From positions 1-43,590 of the forward strand of contig JAOBAU010000175.1 in assembly GCA_025463165.1 (NCBI GenBank): DNA of 43,590 bases. Reading direction: 5' to 3'. The notes beneath the pieces are model-generated. The model did no database searches, was not told where the DNA came from, and saw nothing but the letters and a program-made list of their open reading frames with translations. Of this stretch, positions 27,777 to 33,603 are shown in pieces (position 1 is the stretch's first letter; each line of letters starts with the position of its first letter). The stretch comes from Acidobacteriota bacterium (GTDB lineage Bacteria; Acidobacteriota; Thermoanaerobaculia; Gp7-AA8). The position numbers and the translations under genes are program-made.

Positions 27777-29546
27777 CTACAGCGATTTCAGGTACTCGAT
27801 CAGCGCATCGACCTCCGGCTGCTTGAGGTTCGTTCCCCACGTGTGGCCGGTGTTGTGATTGCCGTCGATCGTCGTGTCGAACTTGAAGCGGCCGTCGCCG
27901 GGCGATGAATCGAATCCGACGTTGACCGGATCGAATTCGCGGCTGCCGACGAAGAACGTCGCCGGCCGTTGCGCGACCGGCATGAGCAGATCGCGCAGCG
28001 ACGGTACCGATCCGTTGTGCAGATACGGCGCGGTTGCCCAGATGCCATCGAGGGGACGCGCTTTGTAGGCCAGTCCGGTCGGCGCCGGCTCCTGCGCGGC
28101 TAGCGCTTCTCTCAAATCGAACTTCACCGGATCGCTCGTCGACGCCGCGCTGTCTGCCGGTGCTTTCGATGCGGTCGCGTGCGACGTCGATTTCAGATCG
28201 AGTCGCAGATCGTGCTCCGATCCTTCGGCCTTGCGCGTCGACGTCGACGCGTTCGCCGTCTTCGCGGCGCGCGCGCGTTCCATCGCGAGGAGATCTTCGA
28301 GCGAAAGCGGCGCGAGAATCGCGCCGAGCACCGCGTTGAACGTGATCGAGCCGGCGCCGGCGGTCGGGCCGAACTTGTCGCCGAGGATCATGAACTTGCG
28401 GACGCCTTCGAGGACGCCGGTCTTGTTGGTGCGATTGGCCGCGACCGTCACCATCACCGGATCGGTGCCGGCGTCGGCGAGCGGCGTCATCGTCACGTTC
28501 TGTTCGACGCCGGGCGTGGCGATCGCGTGACAGCCGACGCACATCCGGTCATAGATGATTTTCCCGTCGCCGACCTTCGTCTGATCGAGCGGAGGAAATG
28601 CCGCCGGCCAGCGCGGCGAACGGAGGTTCGCGAGACGGTCTTCGATCTCGAGCAGGTTGAAGCGCTTGGCCGTCGATTCGTAATAGAGATGAAGGAGGGT
28701 CGGTTTGCGGATTTCGATGTCGGCGAAGACGCCGAGCACTTCACCGACGTTGCGCGCGAGGCGCAGGACGGCGAGTTTGTTCGGTGCGCTGCCGTTCCAC
28801 TGCACGACGTTGTGCCACGACGTGTCCCACAGGAACGGATAACTGACCGGCGCGTTCGGCGGCTCGTTGTTCGACGGGATCTTCAGGTCGATCGCGGTGA
28901 CGCGATTGAAGATCGCGCCGAATGCGTCGGCGCGCGCGAGTCCCCACGACGAATCGGGCGTCGTGTCGATGACGAACGTCGCGAAGGAGTGGCTGAACTT
29001 TTTGAGCTCGACGAAGAGCATCGTCCGTTTTGCGAGATTGTTCGAGGAGCCGAGGACGCGTTTCGCGAAGCGCAGGAACTTCGGATCGGTCGGGCTGACG
29101 CAGGTGGCGGTGAGCGATTCCGAAAGCTCGGCGAGGAAGCCGAAGAGATCGGCGCCGGTCGGTGCGCCATCGATCTGATACGTGACGCCTTTGTAGTCGA
29201 GCTGATTGGTGTGACAGGCGGCGCAGGTCATGCCGAGGTGATCGAGCTTGCGGCCGGTATCGCGCACGAAACCGACCGGCAGGCCGTCGGGATTCGTGCT
29301 GCTCTTCGCATTCGGCAGGTAGTGGAGACGCGCCAGTCCGTCAGCGAAGAAGAGCGTCTGATCGTCGACGCGCTCGAGCGCGAGCGCCCATTTGTAGGGC
29401 ACGAGTTTCGAGCCCTGCGGCGTCGTGTAGAACCACGCCCAGTCGGACGCGGTCCAGTTTTGCGGAAGGCGCTGCGGCGGACCGGCGAGGAGTGCGGCGT
29501 TGCTCGTGACGAGAAGAAACAGGATCGCGAAAACGGATCGGCGCAT
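27777..29546 (-). CDS. Exported dihaem cytochrome c, RoxA/cytochrome-peroxidase-like
   Basis: The 589-residue protein has a signal peptide (MRRSVFAILFLLVTSNAALLAG) and two haem c sites, C108-A-A-C111-H112 and C336-V-G-C339-H340. The N-terminal WFYTTPQGSKLVPYKWALALE stretch, the spacing of the two haems and the GIWATAPYLHNGSVPSL motif near 501-516 match the dihaem family that includes the rubber oxygenase RoxA and distant cytochrome c peroxidases. Whether it is an oxygenase or a peroxidase cannot be told. An acidic, Ser/Ala/Lys-rich stretch at about 421-488, between the second haem region and the C-terminal motif, looks like an unstructured insert. AAGGAG 5 nt before the ATG sets the start. 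It would act in the periplasm or outside the cell. Confidence 0.88.
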   Translation of the reverse strand: MRRSVFAILFLLVTSNAALLAGPPQRLPQNWTASDWAWFYTTPQGSKLVPYKWALALERVDDQTLFFADGLARLHYLPNAKSSTNPDGLPVGFVRDTGRKLDHLGMTCAACHTNQLDYKGVTYQIDGAPTGADLFGFLAELSESLTATCVSPTDPKFLRFAKRVLGSSNNLAKRTMLFVELKKFSHSFATFVIDTTPDSSWGLARADAFGAIFNRVTAIDLKIPSNNEPPNAPVSYPFLWDTSWHNVVQWNGSAPNKLAVLRLARNVGEVLGVFADIEIRKPTLLHLYYESTAKRFNLLEIEDRLANLRSPRWPAAFPPLDQTKVGDGKIIYDRMCVGCHAIATPGVEQNVTMTPLADAGTDPVMVTVAANRTNKTGVLEGVRKFMILGDKFGPTAGAGSITFNAVLGAILAPLSLEDLLAMERARAAKTANASTSTRKAEGSEHDLRLDLKSTSHATASKAPADSAASTSDPVKFDLREALAAQEPAPTGLAYKARPLDGIWATAPYLHNGSVPSLRDLLMPVAQRPATFFVGSREFDPVNVGFDSSPGDGRFKFDTTIDGNHNTGHTWGTNLKQPEVDALIEYLKSL

Positions 29547-29682
29547 CGACTCTCCTTTGGACGCTCAACCTGGGAGTGGCGCGGCGAGCCCATTTCCCTA
29601 CCCACCCGATATCGGTGCCGAAAATGATGCACGTTTTCGTGCTACCGTATTTCCAGCTCGGAAGCGGAGGTGCTGCACAAAA

Positions 29683-29916
29683 ATGGCCGTTTGCTGGCGT
29701 TGTCCCGGTTGCAATGAAGTGAGTTGCGAAGACGACCAGAACTCCACCGGCCATGCGGTGGCGTGCGATCACTGCGAGCGTCCGTATCCGCCGCAAAGCA
29801 CGCTCTGCACGACGTGCGATGCGCCCAATCCGTGGCGCCGCCGCGATTCCGTTCACTACATCTGCGGCGAGTGCGGCACGAGCCAGACCTTCTACTCGCA
29901 CCTCGCGACCGCGTAG
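29683..29916 (+). CDS. Small multi-cysteine zinc-ribbon protein
   Basis: The 77-residue protein contains ten cysteines: C4, C7, C10, C15, then CxxC pairs at 28/31, 42/45 and 61/64. The last pairs (CDHCERPYPP, CTTCDAPNPW, CGECGTSQTF) look like zinc-ribbon knuckles, so it probably binds two zinc ions. No DNA-binding or enzymatic part is visible. It starts at ATG 29683, with GGAGG 13 nt upstream, which is further than usual. It ends 10 bp before the YfhO gene, so the two are probably co-transcribed. About 136 bp separate it from the divergent cytochrome gene; that gap holds a small GCACG-TTTT-CGTGC hairpin and nothing else I recognise. Confidence 0.75.
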   Translation: MAVCWRCPGCNEVSCEDDQNSTGHAVACDHCERPYPPQSTLCTTCDAPNPWRRRDSVHYICGECGTSQTFYSHLATA

Positions 29917-29926
29917 ACGGCGTCGC

Positions 29927-31891
29927 ATGTCGCGCGACGCGAAGATCGCCCTCATCCTCGCCGCGGCGGCCTTCCTCCTTTTCGCCGACGTCATCTTCAC
30001 CGGCAGCGGTTTTTACTATCGCGATGTGTTGCGCGATTACCTCCCGTCGCGTCTCGTGCTGCGCGACGCGGTCATGCACGGCGAGTTTCCGTTCTGGAAT
30101 CGCTTCTACTCTGCCGGGCAACCGCTCGCTGCGAATCCCGGCTTCCAGGCGTTTTATCCGCTGACGTGGCTCGTGCTGTTCGGCATTCGCGGATTTCAAC
30201 TCGGCATCGTGCTGCACCTCGCCATCGCGGCGGCGGGGATGTACCTCTTCCTCCGCTCGCTCGCGTTGCGCGAAGAGTCATCGCTGTTCGGCGCGATCGC
30301 CTTCGCGTTCGGCGGCTGCATGCTGTCGCTCACGAACCTCGTGCCGTTCCTGACGTCGATCGTCTGGTGGCCGGTGATTCTCTGCTGCGCGCGGCGGCGG
30401 AACTTCATCGGCTTCACGCTGTCGCTGGCGATGTTGCTGCTCGCCGCGGAGCAGTCAGCGATTCTGCAAACGTCGCTCCTCGTGCTGATCGCGATCGCGA
30501 TGAGCAGCGAGCGCCGCAAGCTGCTCATCGGCTGCGTCGCAGCGTTCGCGATCGCATCGGTGCAACTCATCCCGGCGCTCGATCTGAAGCGCGACGTCGC
30601 GCGCTCGCAGCCGATCGCATTCGATGACGCGATGGCGTGGAGCATGCCGCTCGATCGGCCGCTCGAGCTCTTCTACGCGCACGCCTTCGGAACGATCACC
30701 GACGATGGCGCGGAGTTCACGGGAGCACGGAGATACACGCCGCCGCGCGTGCCGCTCATCCTCTCGATTTACTGCGGAGTGATCACCGCGCTGCTCGCGG
30801 TTGCCGGCATCGTTCATCGCGTTCGCGGCTGGGCGATCGCACTCGCGCTGATGGCGTTGTCGTTCGTCGTCGCTGCCGGCGCGCAGACGCCGCTCGGACG
30901 CGCGCTTTACGACGCGGGACTCTTTCGCTCGATTCGCTATCCGGAAAAGTTCGTGCTCGGCGGCGTCTTCGCGATGATCGTCCTCGCGGCGATCACGTTC
31001 GATGCGATGGTGCGCGATCGCCGCATCGCCATCGCGCTGATCGCGATCACGGCGCTGGAGCTCGCGTATCACTCGTTCGAGGTCGCGCCGCGCAAGCCGT
31101 CACGGTTCTTCGACGCGCCGCCGATCGTGAACGCGCTGCGCGGCGAGGATCGCGTCTTCCATCTCGGCGCGCTGCCCGGCAGCGGCATGCGTTATCCGGC
31201 CGGCGATCAGACGTACGAAGCGCTGCGCGCCACGCTCGTCCCGTTCACTCCGGCGTCATACGGAATCGCCACCGTCTACGAGCCGGACATCAATCTGACG
31301 ACGCTGCTGCCGACCGCGGAAGTGATGCGCAGCGTCTGGGAGCTTCGCGCGCCGCTACCACTTCTTCGGATGGGCAACGTCGGCCGCGTGATCGTTCCCG
31401 CCTCTGCCGGCGGCGTGCGCGTGCAGCGCATCGAAACGCTTCCGCGCTACTGGTTCGCCGACCGTCTCGTCGTCGCGCGCAATCACGAAGAGATCGCGCG
31501 CGCGCTCAACACCATCACGCCGCACACCGCACTCGTCGACGTCGCGTCGTTCGTTCCTGCATGTGCGGAACTGCTCAGCATCAACGAAGCGCGCAACGGT
31601 GCAACGCTTCGCGTCCGCGCATCGGCGGCGTCGTTTCTCGTCGCCGGCGTCACGCGACATCGCTACTGGCACATCGCCATCGACGGCCGCGAAGTCGACG
31701 CCGTCGCCGCGAACGTCGCGTATCAGGGGATCGTCGTTCCGGCCGGCGAACACGTCATCACGATGCGCTACAGCAACCCGCTGATCGTCGGATTCGGCAT
31801 CGTCAGTCTTCTCGCGCTTGCCGCTGCATTGTTATGGCGGTACCCTTCACACAAATCTTCACTGGATCAGACGGGAGGGGCGGATGGGTGA
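29927..31891 (+). CDS. YfhO-like polytopic membrane protein
   Basis: The 654-residue protein opens with a membrane helix (KIALILAAAAFLLFADVIF) followed by a conserved loop FYYRDVLRDYLPSRLVLRDA and FPFWNRFYSAGQPLAANPG, the signature of the YfhO/GT-C-like group. About eleven more hydrophobic segments follow up to residue 390, then a soluble domain (about 400-620) and one last helix (LIVGFGIVSLLALAAALLW). Relatives are thought to act in glycosylation of cell-envelope polymers with lipid-linked sugars; the substrate here is unknown. The ATG at 29927 is chosen because the first helix starts there, although the frame is open upstream. Its 3' end overlaps the next gene by 8 bp, so translation is coupled. 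Confidence 0.85.
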   Translation: MSRDAKIALILAAAAFLLFADVIFTGSGFYYRDVLRDYLPSRLVLRDAVMHGEFPFWNRFYSAGQPLAANPGFQAFYPLTWLVLFGIRGFQLGIVLHLAIAAAGMYLFLRSLALREESSLFGAIAFAFGGCMLSLTNLVPFLTSIVWWPVILCCARRRNFIGFTLSLAMLLLAAEQSAILQTSLLVLIAIAMSSERRKLLIGCVAAFAIASVQLIPALDLKRDVARSQPIAFDDAMAWSMPLDRPLELFYAHAFGTITDDGAEFTGARRYTPPRVPLILSIYCGVITALLAVAGIVHRVRGWAIALALMALSFVVAAGAQTPLGRALYDAGLFRSIRYPEKFVLGGVFAMIVLAAITFDAMVRDRRIAIALIAITALELAYHSFEVAPRKPSRFFDAPPIVNALRGEDRVFHLGALPGSGMRYPAGDQTYEALRATLVPFTPASYGIATVYEPDINLTTLLPTAEVMRSVWELRAPLPLLRMGNVGRVIVPASAGGVRVQRIETLPRYWFADRLVVARNHEEIARALNTITPHTALVDVASFVPACAELLSINEARNGATLRVRASAASFLVAGVTRHRYWHIAIDGREVDAVAANVAYQGIVVPAGEHVITMRYSNPLIVGFGIVSLLALAAALLWRYPSHKSSLDQTGGADG

Positions 31892-32396
31892 GATCAAGCT
31901 GTTCCAGATCTGCTTTGAGGGCGACCTCACTGTGGAAGTGTCGCACGCGATGCGACGCCTCGGTGCGGAGCCGAATTTCGATCAGAGCTGGCAGATATGG
32001 CTTCCCGAAGGACGCCACGCCGCACCGCTGGTCCGCTATCTCCGCTCACGACTCGGCGAAGATGCGCGACTGCTCGTCGCATGTGCGCAGTTCACGATCG
32101 CGCGCGACTTCCTCCTGATCCGTCACAGTCAAACTCCCGGCGCTGACTACAGCGAACTGCACGACGCCATCGCGCGACTCGGCACCGTCGTCGAGCTGCC
32201 GTTCGAATCGACGTTCATCGTGCAGTCCGCCGATCCGACCGACGTGCAGACGCTCGGCCTCGCCTTCGGCGAGCTTTGCCCCGACGACTCGCTGATGGTC
32301 CTCGGCGTCAGTCACGACTGGGCGTACAGCGACGCCGGCATCAGCCGGATGCACGTCGCCGACGAACAGGTCGAGCTGCAGTTCCGCGCGTTCTAA
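31884..32396 (+). CDS. Two-domain Cas2/SinR-like ferredoxin-fold protein, unknown role
   Basis: This 170-residue protein seems to be an internal duplication. Residues 5-69 and 74-144 share the order strand, helix with (A)xRLG, strand ending in (S)xxIW or (S)TFIV, helix, acidic turn (EDARLLVACAQ / DDSLMVLGVSH). The second half, with PGADYSELHDAIARLG and ESTFIVQSADPTD, closely follows the pattern of SinR-like proteins related to Cas2 and VapD. No catalytic residues can be assigned and no CRISPR array is in the window. GGAGGGG just upstream of ATG 31884 and the 8-bp overlap with the YfhO gene show translational coupling. A family B repeat follows 10 bp after its stop. I infer the fold; the function is unknown. 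Confidence 0.7.
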   Translation: MGEIKLFQICFEGDLTVEVSHAMRRLGAEPNFDQSWQIWLPEGRHAAPLVRYLRSRLGEDARLLVACAQFTIARDFLLIRHSQTPGADYSELHDAIARLGTVVELPFESTFIVQSADPTDVQTLGLAFGELCPDDSLMVLGVSHDWAYSDAGISRMHVADEQVELQFRAF

Positions 32397-32469: not shown

Positions 32470-33537
32470 TCACGTCAGCGCCGCGAGATTCCGCGCCAGC
32501 GCCGGCGCCATCAGCAGCAGCGACGCGATTCGCCGCGACACGCTCGAGAACTGCGACACCTCGTCACGCAGCAGCGCGCGGCCGATCGCGGTCGCGCTTC
32601 GATCGCGCAGCCAGCGCGGCAGCACCGGCGACTCGCCATACGAATAGTTCCAGACGTGCTGCGGGACGTTGCGCCAGAACGCTTTGTCGTTGAGATAGAC
32701 GTCGCATGTGCGCGCACCGAGGAGGTCGATGACCTCGCCGGTCGTCATGCCGTTCGCGCGCGCGTGATCGCTGAGCGCGACCAGCTCTTCATCATCGTAT
32801 TCGCGCACGACGATGCGTCCTTCGCCATCCCACCAGTCGCTCAGCGCGAGCACGGAGCCGCGCAACATCCGCGCTTCTTTCCCGACGCGCGTCGCGGTGC
32901 CGATCCAGCGCAGCTCCTGATCGTCGCGCCGCAGCGCGAGCGTCGACGGCTCGCCGTACAGCGACGCGATGCGATAGCCGAGCACCGCCGAGAAACGGAT
33001 CAGCTCCGCGGAGTCGGGAAGTGGCACCGACATGATCGCGTGACCATCAGCGGCGAGCACCGCGACCGTGTGATGGAAGAGTTCCGTCTCACCGCAGCCA
33101 AGGCGTACAGCGTGCTGGCGAGCTTCGCGGGTCAGGTTCGGAGTCCGGCCGCTTGCGGAGACGCAGTGCAGCGGGAAGAGTCGAAGATGGCCGCCGCGAA
33201 CGGCATTGCGCGCGATGAAGGGCGCCTGGATTCCGTGCGCATCGATCGCCAGCCAGTCGGTCGCGCCGGCCAGCTGCTCGCGATAGACGCGCTCGCGCTC
33301 GTCGTTCGCGTAGCACCAGCGAACGTCGAACGGCTGTTCGTTGCAGGCGATGACGTACGACTCGTCGAAATGAAAGCGAAGCGTTTCGTGATGCGGCCGC
33401 CGCGCCTCGTGGCGCATCCGGCGAATGAGGCGCGGCCGATCGGCATCGGCGCGATCGGGCGAGGTTCCGAGACCGGTGAACGAAGTGCTGAAAAGGTCCG
33501 CAAGGGTGGTGGTGCCGGTTTTCTGCCGTGTGGGCAT
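32470..33537 (-). CDS. Orphan type ISP restriction-enzyme C-terminal (specificity-like) domain protein
   Basis: The 355-residue protein resembles only the last third of type ISP (LlaBIII-like) restriction-modification enzymes. The C-terminal block YLNDKAFWRNVPQHVWNYSY then G-x-x-PVLPRWLRDR (281-313), followed by a helix ending RRIASLLLMAPAL, is the family's end. QPFDVRWCYAND (68-79) matches the RPFDTRW segment, and LFPLHCVSASGRTPNL (120-135) and FHHTVAVL (154-161) also fit. There is no nuclease, helicase or methyltransferase part in this protein or beside it. The frame is intact and GGAG stands 6 nt before the ATG at 33537, so it looks maintained, not decayed. It might bind DNA specifically; that is inference. 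A start at 33579 is possible. Confidence 0.65.
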   Translation of the reverse strand: MPTRQKTGTTTLADLFSTSFTGLGTSPDRADADRPRLIRRMRHEARRPHHETLRFHFDESYVIACNEQPFDVRWCYANDERERVYREQLAGATDWLAIDAHGIQAPFIARNAVRGGHLRLFPLHCVSASGRTPNLTREARQHAVRLGCGETELFHHTVAVLAADGHAIMSVPLPDSAELIRFSAVLGYRIASLYGEPSTLALRRDDQELRWIGTATRVGKEARMLRGSVLALSDWWDGEGRIVVREYDDEELVALSDHARANGMTTGEVIDLLGARTCDVYLNDKAFWRNVPQHVWNYSYGESPVLPRWLRDRSATAIGRALLRDEVSQFSSVSRRIASLLLMAPALARNLAALT

Positions 33538-33603
33538 CCTGATCTCCGGGAGTCGCTGCCTCGCGCGGACCTCGCGCAAAGCGTCAGCGGACGGATGGAG
33601 TGA

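Follow-up and report, generated by a model that had tools for sequence, protein, structure and literature searches.

Organization of the locus

The window, by which we mean the whole stretch of 43,590 nucleotides that was analysed (contig JAOBAU010000175.1 of an Acidobacteriota bacterium, class Thermoanaerobaculia), carries on its plus strand, at positions 31884–32396, a gene for a protein of 170 amino acids plus stop, referred to here as the tandem Cas2/SinR-like gene. The product is a single chain in which an N-terminal half (31884–32093, +), a C-terminal half (about residues 71–150; 32094–32333, +) and a C-terminal tail (residues 151–170; 32334–32393, +) can be distinguished. The ATG is preceded by a Shine–Dalgarno-like start signal at 31868–31883 (+), GGGAGGGGCGG, the form in most relatives being GGGAGGGTGTGATG. 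The latter was considered as a special regulatory element and rejected: the identical 14 bases are also found elsewhere in this genome, 5' of two genes unrelated to it, coding for an RDD-like membrane protein and a SPOR-like protein (G000:C136:151 and G000:C215:25828; both proteins were named from their sequences). Because it precedes two unrelated genes, we take GGGAGGGTGTGATG to be a strong but ordinary start.

Immediately upstream lies an open reading frame for a YfhO-family membrane protein (29753–31891, +; its true start is probably further in), which overlaps the start of the tandem gene by 8 bases. Further upstream are a small zinc-ribbon protein (29500–29916, +; Pfam DZR, E 0.01, below cut-off) and, on the minus strand at 27777–29546, a RoxA-like (rubber-oxygenase type) cytochrome c (Pfam PF21419, E 8.6e-20). 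Downstream, a minus-strand gene at 32470–33579 codes for a 369-amino acid protein, the C-terminal part of which matches the type ISP restriction enzyme specificity domain (Pfam PF18135, E 7.5e-8); a methylase or helicase part was not seen beside it, and its location between the tandem gene and HlyD is peculiar to the window.

Distribution and conservation of the tandem gene

A search of 148 genomes of the class located the tandem gene in 15 of the 18 genomes of its own family and in one genome from a sister family belonging to the same order, always as a single copy and with 56–78% identity. Across 396 genomes of the phylum, a profile built from these 16 sequences detected no relatives beyond the known carriers. 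A pattern-based scan covering 84,980 species genomes, a method that responds to close relatives only, returned four, all titled Thermoanaerobaculia or Acidobacteria. No relatives of the protein were found in a plasmid search, and matches in a phage search were at chance level. An open frame of 155 amino acids in genome G234 was evaluated as a second tandem protein and rejected, being made of one unit and an unrelated upstream extension. Values of dN/dS ranged from 0.09 to 0.40 (19 pairs listed); the gene is under purifying selection and is a real, conserved gene. Direct family searches with the whole protein against Pfam, NCBIfam, PADLOC and PDB sequences gave no family match.

Gene neighbourhood and relation to CRISPR

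Neighbourhoods were compared in the window and around 14 other copies of the gene. YfhO adjoins it in three cases, the window and two genomes of one other genus (G050 and G066), where it is also directly adjacent. In three other neighbourhoods the gene directly upstream codes for a zinc ribbon. The gene order zinc-ribbon, YfhO, tandem gene, raised in the earlier note as one that might be kept in relatives, was found as a strict triplet in the window only. An HlyD-ABC-FtsX group is located downstream in seven neighbourhoods; one of the seven is the window, in which two minus-strand genes separate it from the tandem gene. In six or seven neighbourhoods the gene adjoins a peptide transporter, assigned to the POT type by its sequence and not from a family search, and MurB, a zinc ribbon or GlnRS make up other flanks. 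The zinc ribbon of the relatives is itself either close to GlnRS or immediately 5' of the tandem gene. In 13 carriers YfhO does not lie directly upstream; 12 of these display a TA---T hexamer 40–60 bases before the gene, and the summed score of this promoter-like hexamer was higher than in all of 2000 shuffles (which kept base composition only). Judged from these upstream regions, most carriers without an adjoining YfhO possess their own promoter-like site for the tandem gene.

These data bear on the coupling to YfhO that the earlier note had also advanced, which would imply that the tandem protein acts with YfhO at the membrane. The 8-base overlap and the adjacency in the two other genomes would fit such a role, but we regard it as very improbable: the adjacency is limited to the window and two relatives of a single other genus, and most carriers have differing, housekeeping neighbours and usually the promoter-like site described above. 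The overlap with YfhO is a local feature and the link appears mostly incidental.

A role outside CRISPR, on the other hand, had been anticipated correctly. Neither cas1 nor cas2 was found when sought in the genome carrying the window, cas1 is present in only 3 of the 15 family carriers and neither of the two was recognised next to the tandem gene in the neighbourhoods of relatives; the tandem protein is CRISPR-independent. Given its varied neighbours, its own promoter-like site and the scarcity of cas1, the tandem gene is best regarded as chromosomal and stand-alone.

CRISPR loci were also observed in two of the relatives' genomes, in which short arrays alternate with repeated cas2 genes (G030:C68, L146:5402-14928, and G022:C42, L147:6247-8230); the repeat in both is GTCCGAATGAGTGCGCCGCT[CG]GAAGGCGATTGCGAC. 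The first locus contains 54 repeats and seven Cas2 matches within about 9.5 kb (one match has an internal TGA and three are partial; an eighth is located on C94). In the second, about 2.3 kb separates two Cas2 copies, and there is a 300-base duplication that is 90% identical.

The C-terminal half is homologous to SinR-like proteins

A set of SinR-like proteins of about 90 residues was drawn from viral contigs, the query being a consensus sequence; all five sequences checked against the PHROGs library were matched by phrog_1090. Alignment of the 16-member tandem family with these five sequences (HHalign) covered residues 83–150 with a probability of 96.7 and E 3.8e-10, and comparison of the C-terminal half with the SinR-like profile gave a score of 51.5, against a mean of 10.7 and a maximum of 17.3 for 200 column permutations. 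When run over the 396 genomes of the phylum, the SinR-like profile picked out the tandem gene, and no other, in each of the six sampled carriers (E 1.5e-6 to 3.2e-4). Nine matches fell outside the tandem gene: the one present in G260 and G297 is a bona fide Cas2 (Pfam CRISPR_Cas2, E 8.6e-17) and two others fit the Cas2 profile weakly (0.0024 and 0.013). Conversely, phrog_1090 matched 7 of the 16 tandem-family members (best E 1.4e-4), while the Pfam CRISPR_Cas2 profile matched none of the 16. At the level of sequence, then, homology links the C-terminal half with the phrog_1090/SinR-like family of Cas2 fold, the similarity being far above chance, and the SinR/Cas2-like nature that the earlier note had ascribed to the second half holds.

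The N-terminal half and the predicted fold

Sequence similarity of the N-terminal half is marginal. Its HHalign score against the SinR-like profile was 19.1 (maximum of 200 permutations, 20.2), and its score against the C-terminal half was 18.1, with 3 of 200 permutations higher. Both alignments nevertheless sit in the register that a repeat would give, and it is the register of the AlphaFold2 model as well. That model was computed from 42 rows, of which 37 were SinR-like sequences placed on the C-terminal half (as shown by the half of the alignment rows that was inspected). Since SinR-like rows were given to AlphaFold2, the model of the C-terminal half is not independent of the SinR-like hypothesis. 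For the whole chain the pLDDT was 85.8 and the pTM 0.82; the N-terminal half reached a pLDDT of about 90 although the SinR-like rows cover the C-terminal half. With five close relatives only and no SinR-like rows, the order of strands and helices was similar but of low confidence (pLDDT 52).

The predicted order is E4–12, H17–25, E29–32, E35–41, H46–57 and E62–69 in the N-terminal half, and E76–81, H90–99, E110–114, H121–129 and E137–150 in the C-terminal half (E, strand; H, helix), where the second strand is reduced to two residues (101–102). Two further strands are predicted in the tail, the sequence of which is variable (pLDDT 43–57). A ferredoxin-like fold is thus predicted for both halves, in agreement with the earlier proposal of two such halves in one chain, and a single-domain outcome was not seen. 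From the model and the marginal sequence score together, we infer that the N-terminal half is also homologous to the Cas2/SinR-like unit. The pTM suggests a fixed arrangement of the halves, and it is plausible, from this confident whole-chain prediction, that they are packed as a pseudo-dimer.

Searches of the model against PDB and viral structures with Foldseek gave no match at E<=0.001. Cas2 chains are among the weak hits, most of which cover a single domain (TM to target 0.41–0.58), mixed with ACT-type and other ferredoxin-like folds. The top PDB matches are ACT-type regulatory subunits, and it could be supposed that the protein is a tandem ferredoxin-like sensor or regulator responding to a small molecule, in which the SinR-like similarity reflects fold and not action. 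We consider this improbable. These top matches are themselves weak (E 0.011, TM 0.24), the ACT matches to this confident model have a TM of about 0.25 with an rmsd above 12 A, no ACT family match was obtained in Pfam or NCBIfam, and the sequence match of the C-terminal half to SinR-like proteins (the E-value of 3.8e-10 given above) extends over most of the fold.

Conserved residues and loss of the cleft aspartates

In each protomer of Cas2, VapD and BPSL1038, strand 1 ends in an aspartate, which is located at the dimer cleft and adjoins a conserved Ser or Ser/Thr turn (PMC9510766, PMC10491678, PMC11980593). In the Cas2 and VapD homodimers the active cleft is formed between two identical subunits, with one Asp per protomer. 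The end of strand 1 reads Y-D-L in 37 of 37 SinR-like rows and R80-H81-S82 in all 16 tandem proteins, so that the position of the Cas2 catalytic Asp is occupied in the C-terminal half by His81 (16/16). Strand 1 of the N-terminal half ends at an invariant E12-G13 (16/16); going by the strand ends of the model, Glu12 is probably the N-half counterpart of the catalytic Asp. With His81 and probably Glu12 at the aspartate positions, the protein no longer has the canonical two-Asp nuclease site. The helix-2 'RD' of the SinR-like family (R in 28 and D in 34 of 37 rows) is likewise replaced, by L124-G125 in the window protein.

The Ser/Thr turn is largely kept. It reads D-S-T-W in the SinR-like family. 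In the C-terminal half, the turn F107-[ED]108-S109-T110-F111 is mostly kept (E108-S109-T110-F111 in the window protein), and S109 aligns with a Ser in 37 of 37 SinR-like rows, within a pattern [DE]-S-T-[FW]. The turn between strands 2 and 3 of the N-terminal half is F32-D33-[QR]34-S35-W36 (D33-Q34-S35-W36 in the window protein). Invariant across the 16 sequences are E12, S35, W36, R80, H81, S82, Y89, E91 and H93. The aspartates are lost, yet an unusually fixed set of polar residues persists.

Discussion

The explanation that we favour, with modest confidence, is that two Cas2/SinR-like ferredoxin-fold units form a pseudo-dimer within the single chain of the tandem protein, which is independent of CRISPR and probably binds nucleic acid without a canonical nuclease site. 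Its gene would probably have arisen when the gene for a small, stand-alone protein of phrog_1090 type was duplicated and the copies were fused, and would then have been inherited chromosomally within one Thermoanaerobaculia lineage. In the process, the symmetric two-Asp cleft would have given way to a fixed asymmetric Glu12/His81 pair, the Ser/Thr turn lining the cleft being largely kept. RNA or DNA would be held across the cleft of the pseudo-dimer, by what would be a binding or regulatory protein without canonical cleavage. Nucleic-acid binding is the most likely activity, as we infer it: with both aspartates lost and a site of action outside CRISPR, the protein has probably been re-purposed for binding nucleic acid.

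Comparison with known systems brings out both relationship and divergence. The phrog_1090/SinR-like proteins (about 90 amino acids, function unknown) are homologous to the tandem C-terminal half over nearly the whole fold, and Y89, S109, D/E135 and the Ser/Thr turn are retained. In contrast to these phage- and plasmid-borne single units, the tandem protein consists of two predicted units in 170 amino acids, has RHS in place of YDL, lacks the helix-2 'RD' and is encoded by a conserved chromosomal gene. With Cas2 it shares the ferredoxin-like unit and a predicted double arrangement, and the SinR-like profile finds both the tandem gene and true Cas2; unlike Cas2, it is fused, has no catalytic Asp and is found in a genome without cas1 or cas2. 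In the case of VapD and VapW, a toxin and its catalytically dead homologue (PMC11980593), active and inactivated versions of a Cas2-type fold are known, but the tandem protein is a single chain and has no sequence-family match. The BPSL1038 sub-family of Cas2/VapD nucleases (PMC10491678) is similarly stand-alone and CRISPR-free and has the Ser/Thr turn between strands 2 and 3; however, BPSL1038 is a homodimer of single units and D11 of its D(X20)SST motif is missing from the tandem protein.

The chief rival is a nuclease that is active through a remodelled site: Glu12 would lie opposite His81 across the pseudo-dimer, and the pair would cut RNA or DNA, possibly without a metal. The nine invariant residues listed above resemble an active site more than a scaffold, and metal-independent activity has been reported for Helicobacter pylori VapD and BPSL1038 (PMC10491678, PMC9510766). 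Against this, the Asp that is important in Cas2 and VapD is gone from the C-terminal half and probably from the N-terminal half; a VapD homologue without catalytic residues, VapW, can be a non-catalytic partner (PMC11980593); and no small, antitoxin-like partner gene was found to be conserved beside the tandem gene in the neighbourhoods examined. On balance a Glu12/His81 nuclease seems rather unlikely. A broader proposal may be entertained tentatively, namely that duplication and fusion created an asymmetric Glu12/His81 site with a new activity, either catalytic or in RNA/DNA recognition, serving a conserved chromosomal function in one lineage.

To our knowledge, no natural single-chain version of Cas2 or VapD has been described, and none was found in a limited literature search. 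A natural fusion in which both catalytic positions are changed would reveal a use of the Cas2 fold outside CRISPR and toxin–antitoxin systems, and would permit each half of the cleft to be mutated separately. It would also connect phrog_1090, a phage and plasmid family of unknown function, with a conserved chromosomal gene.
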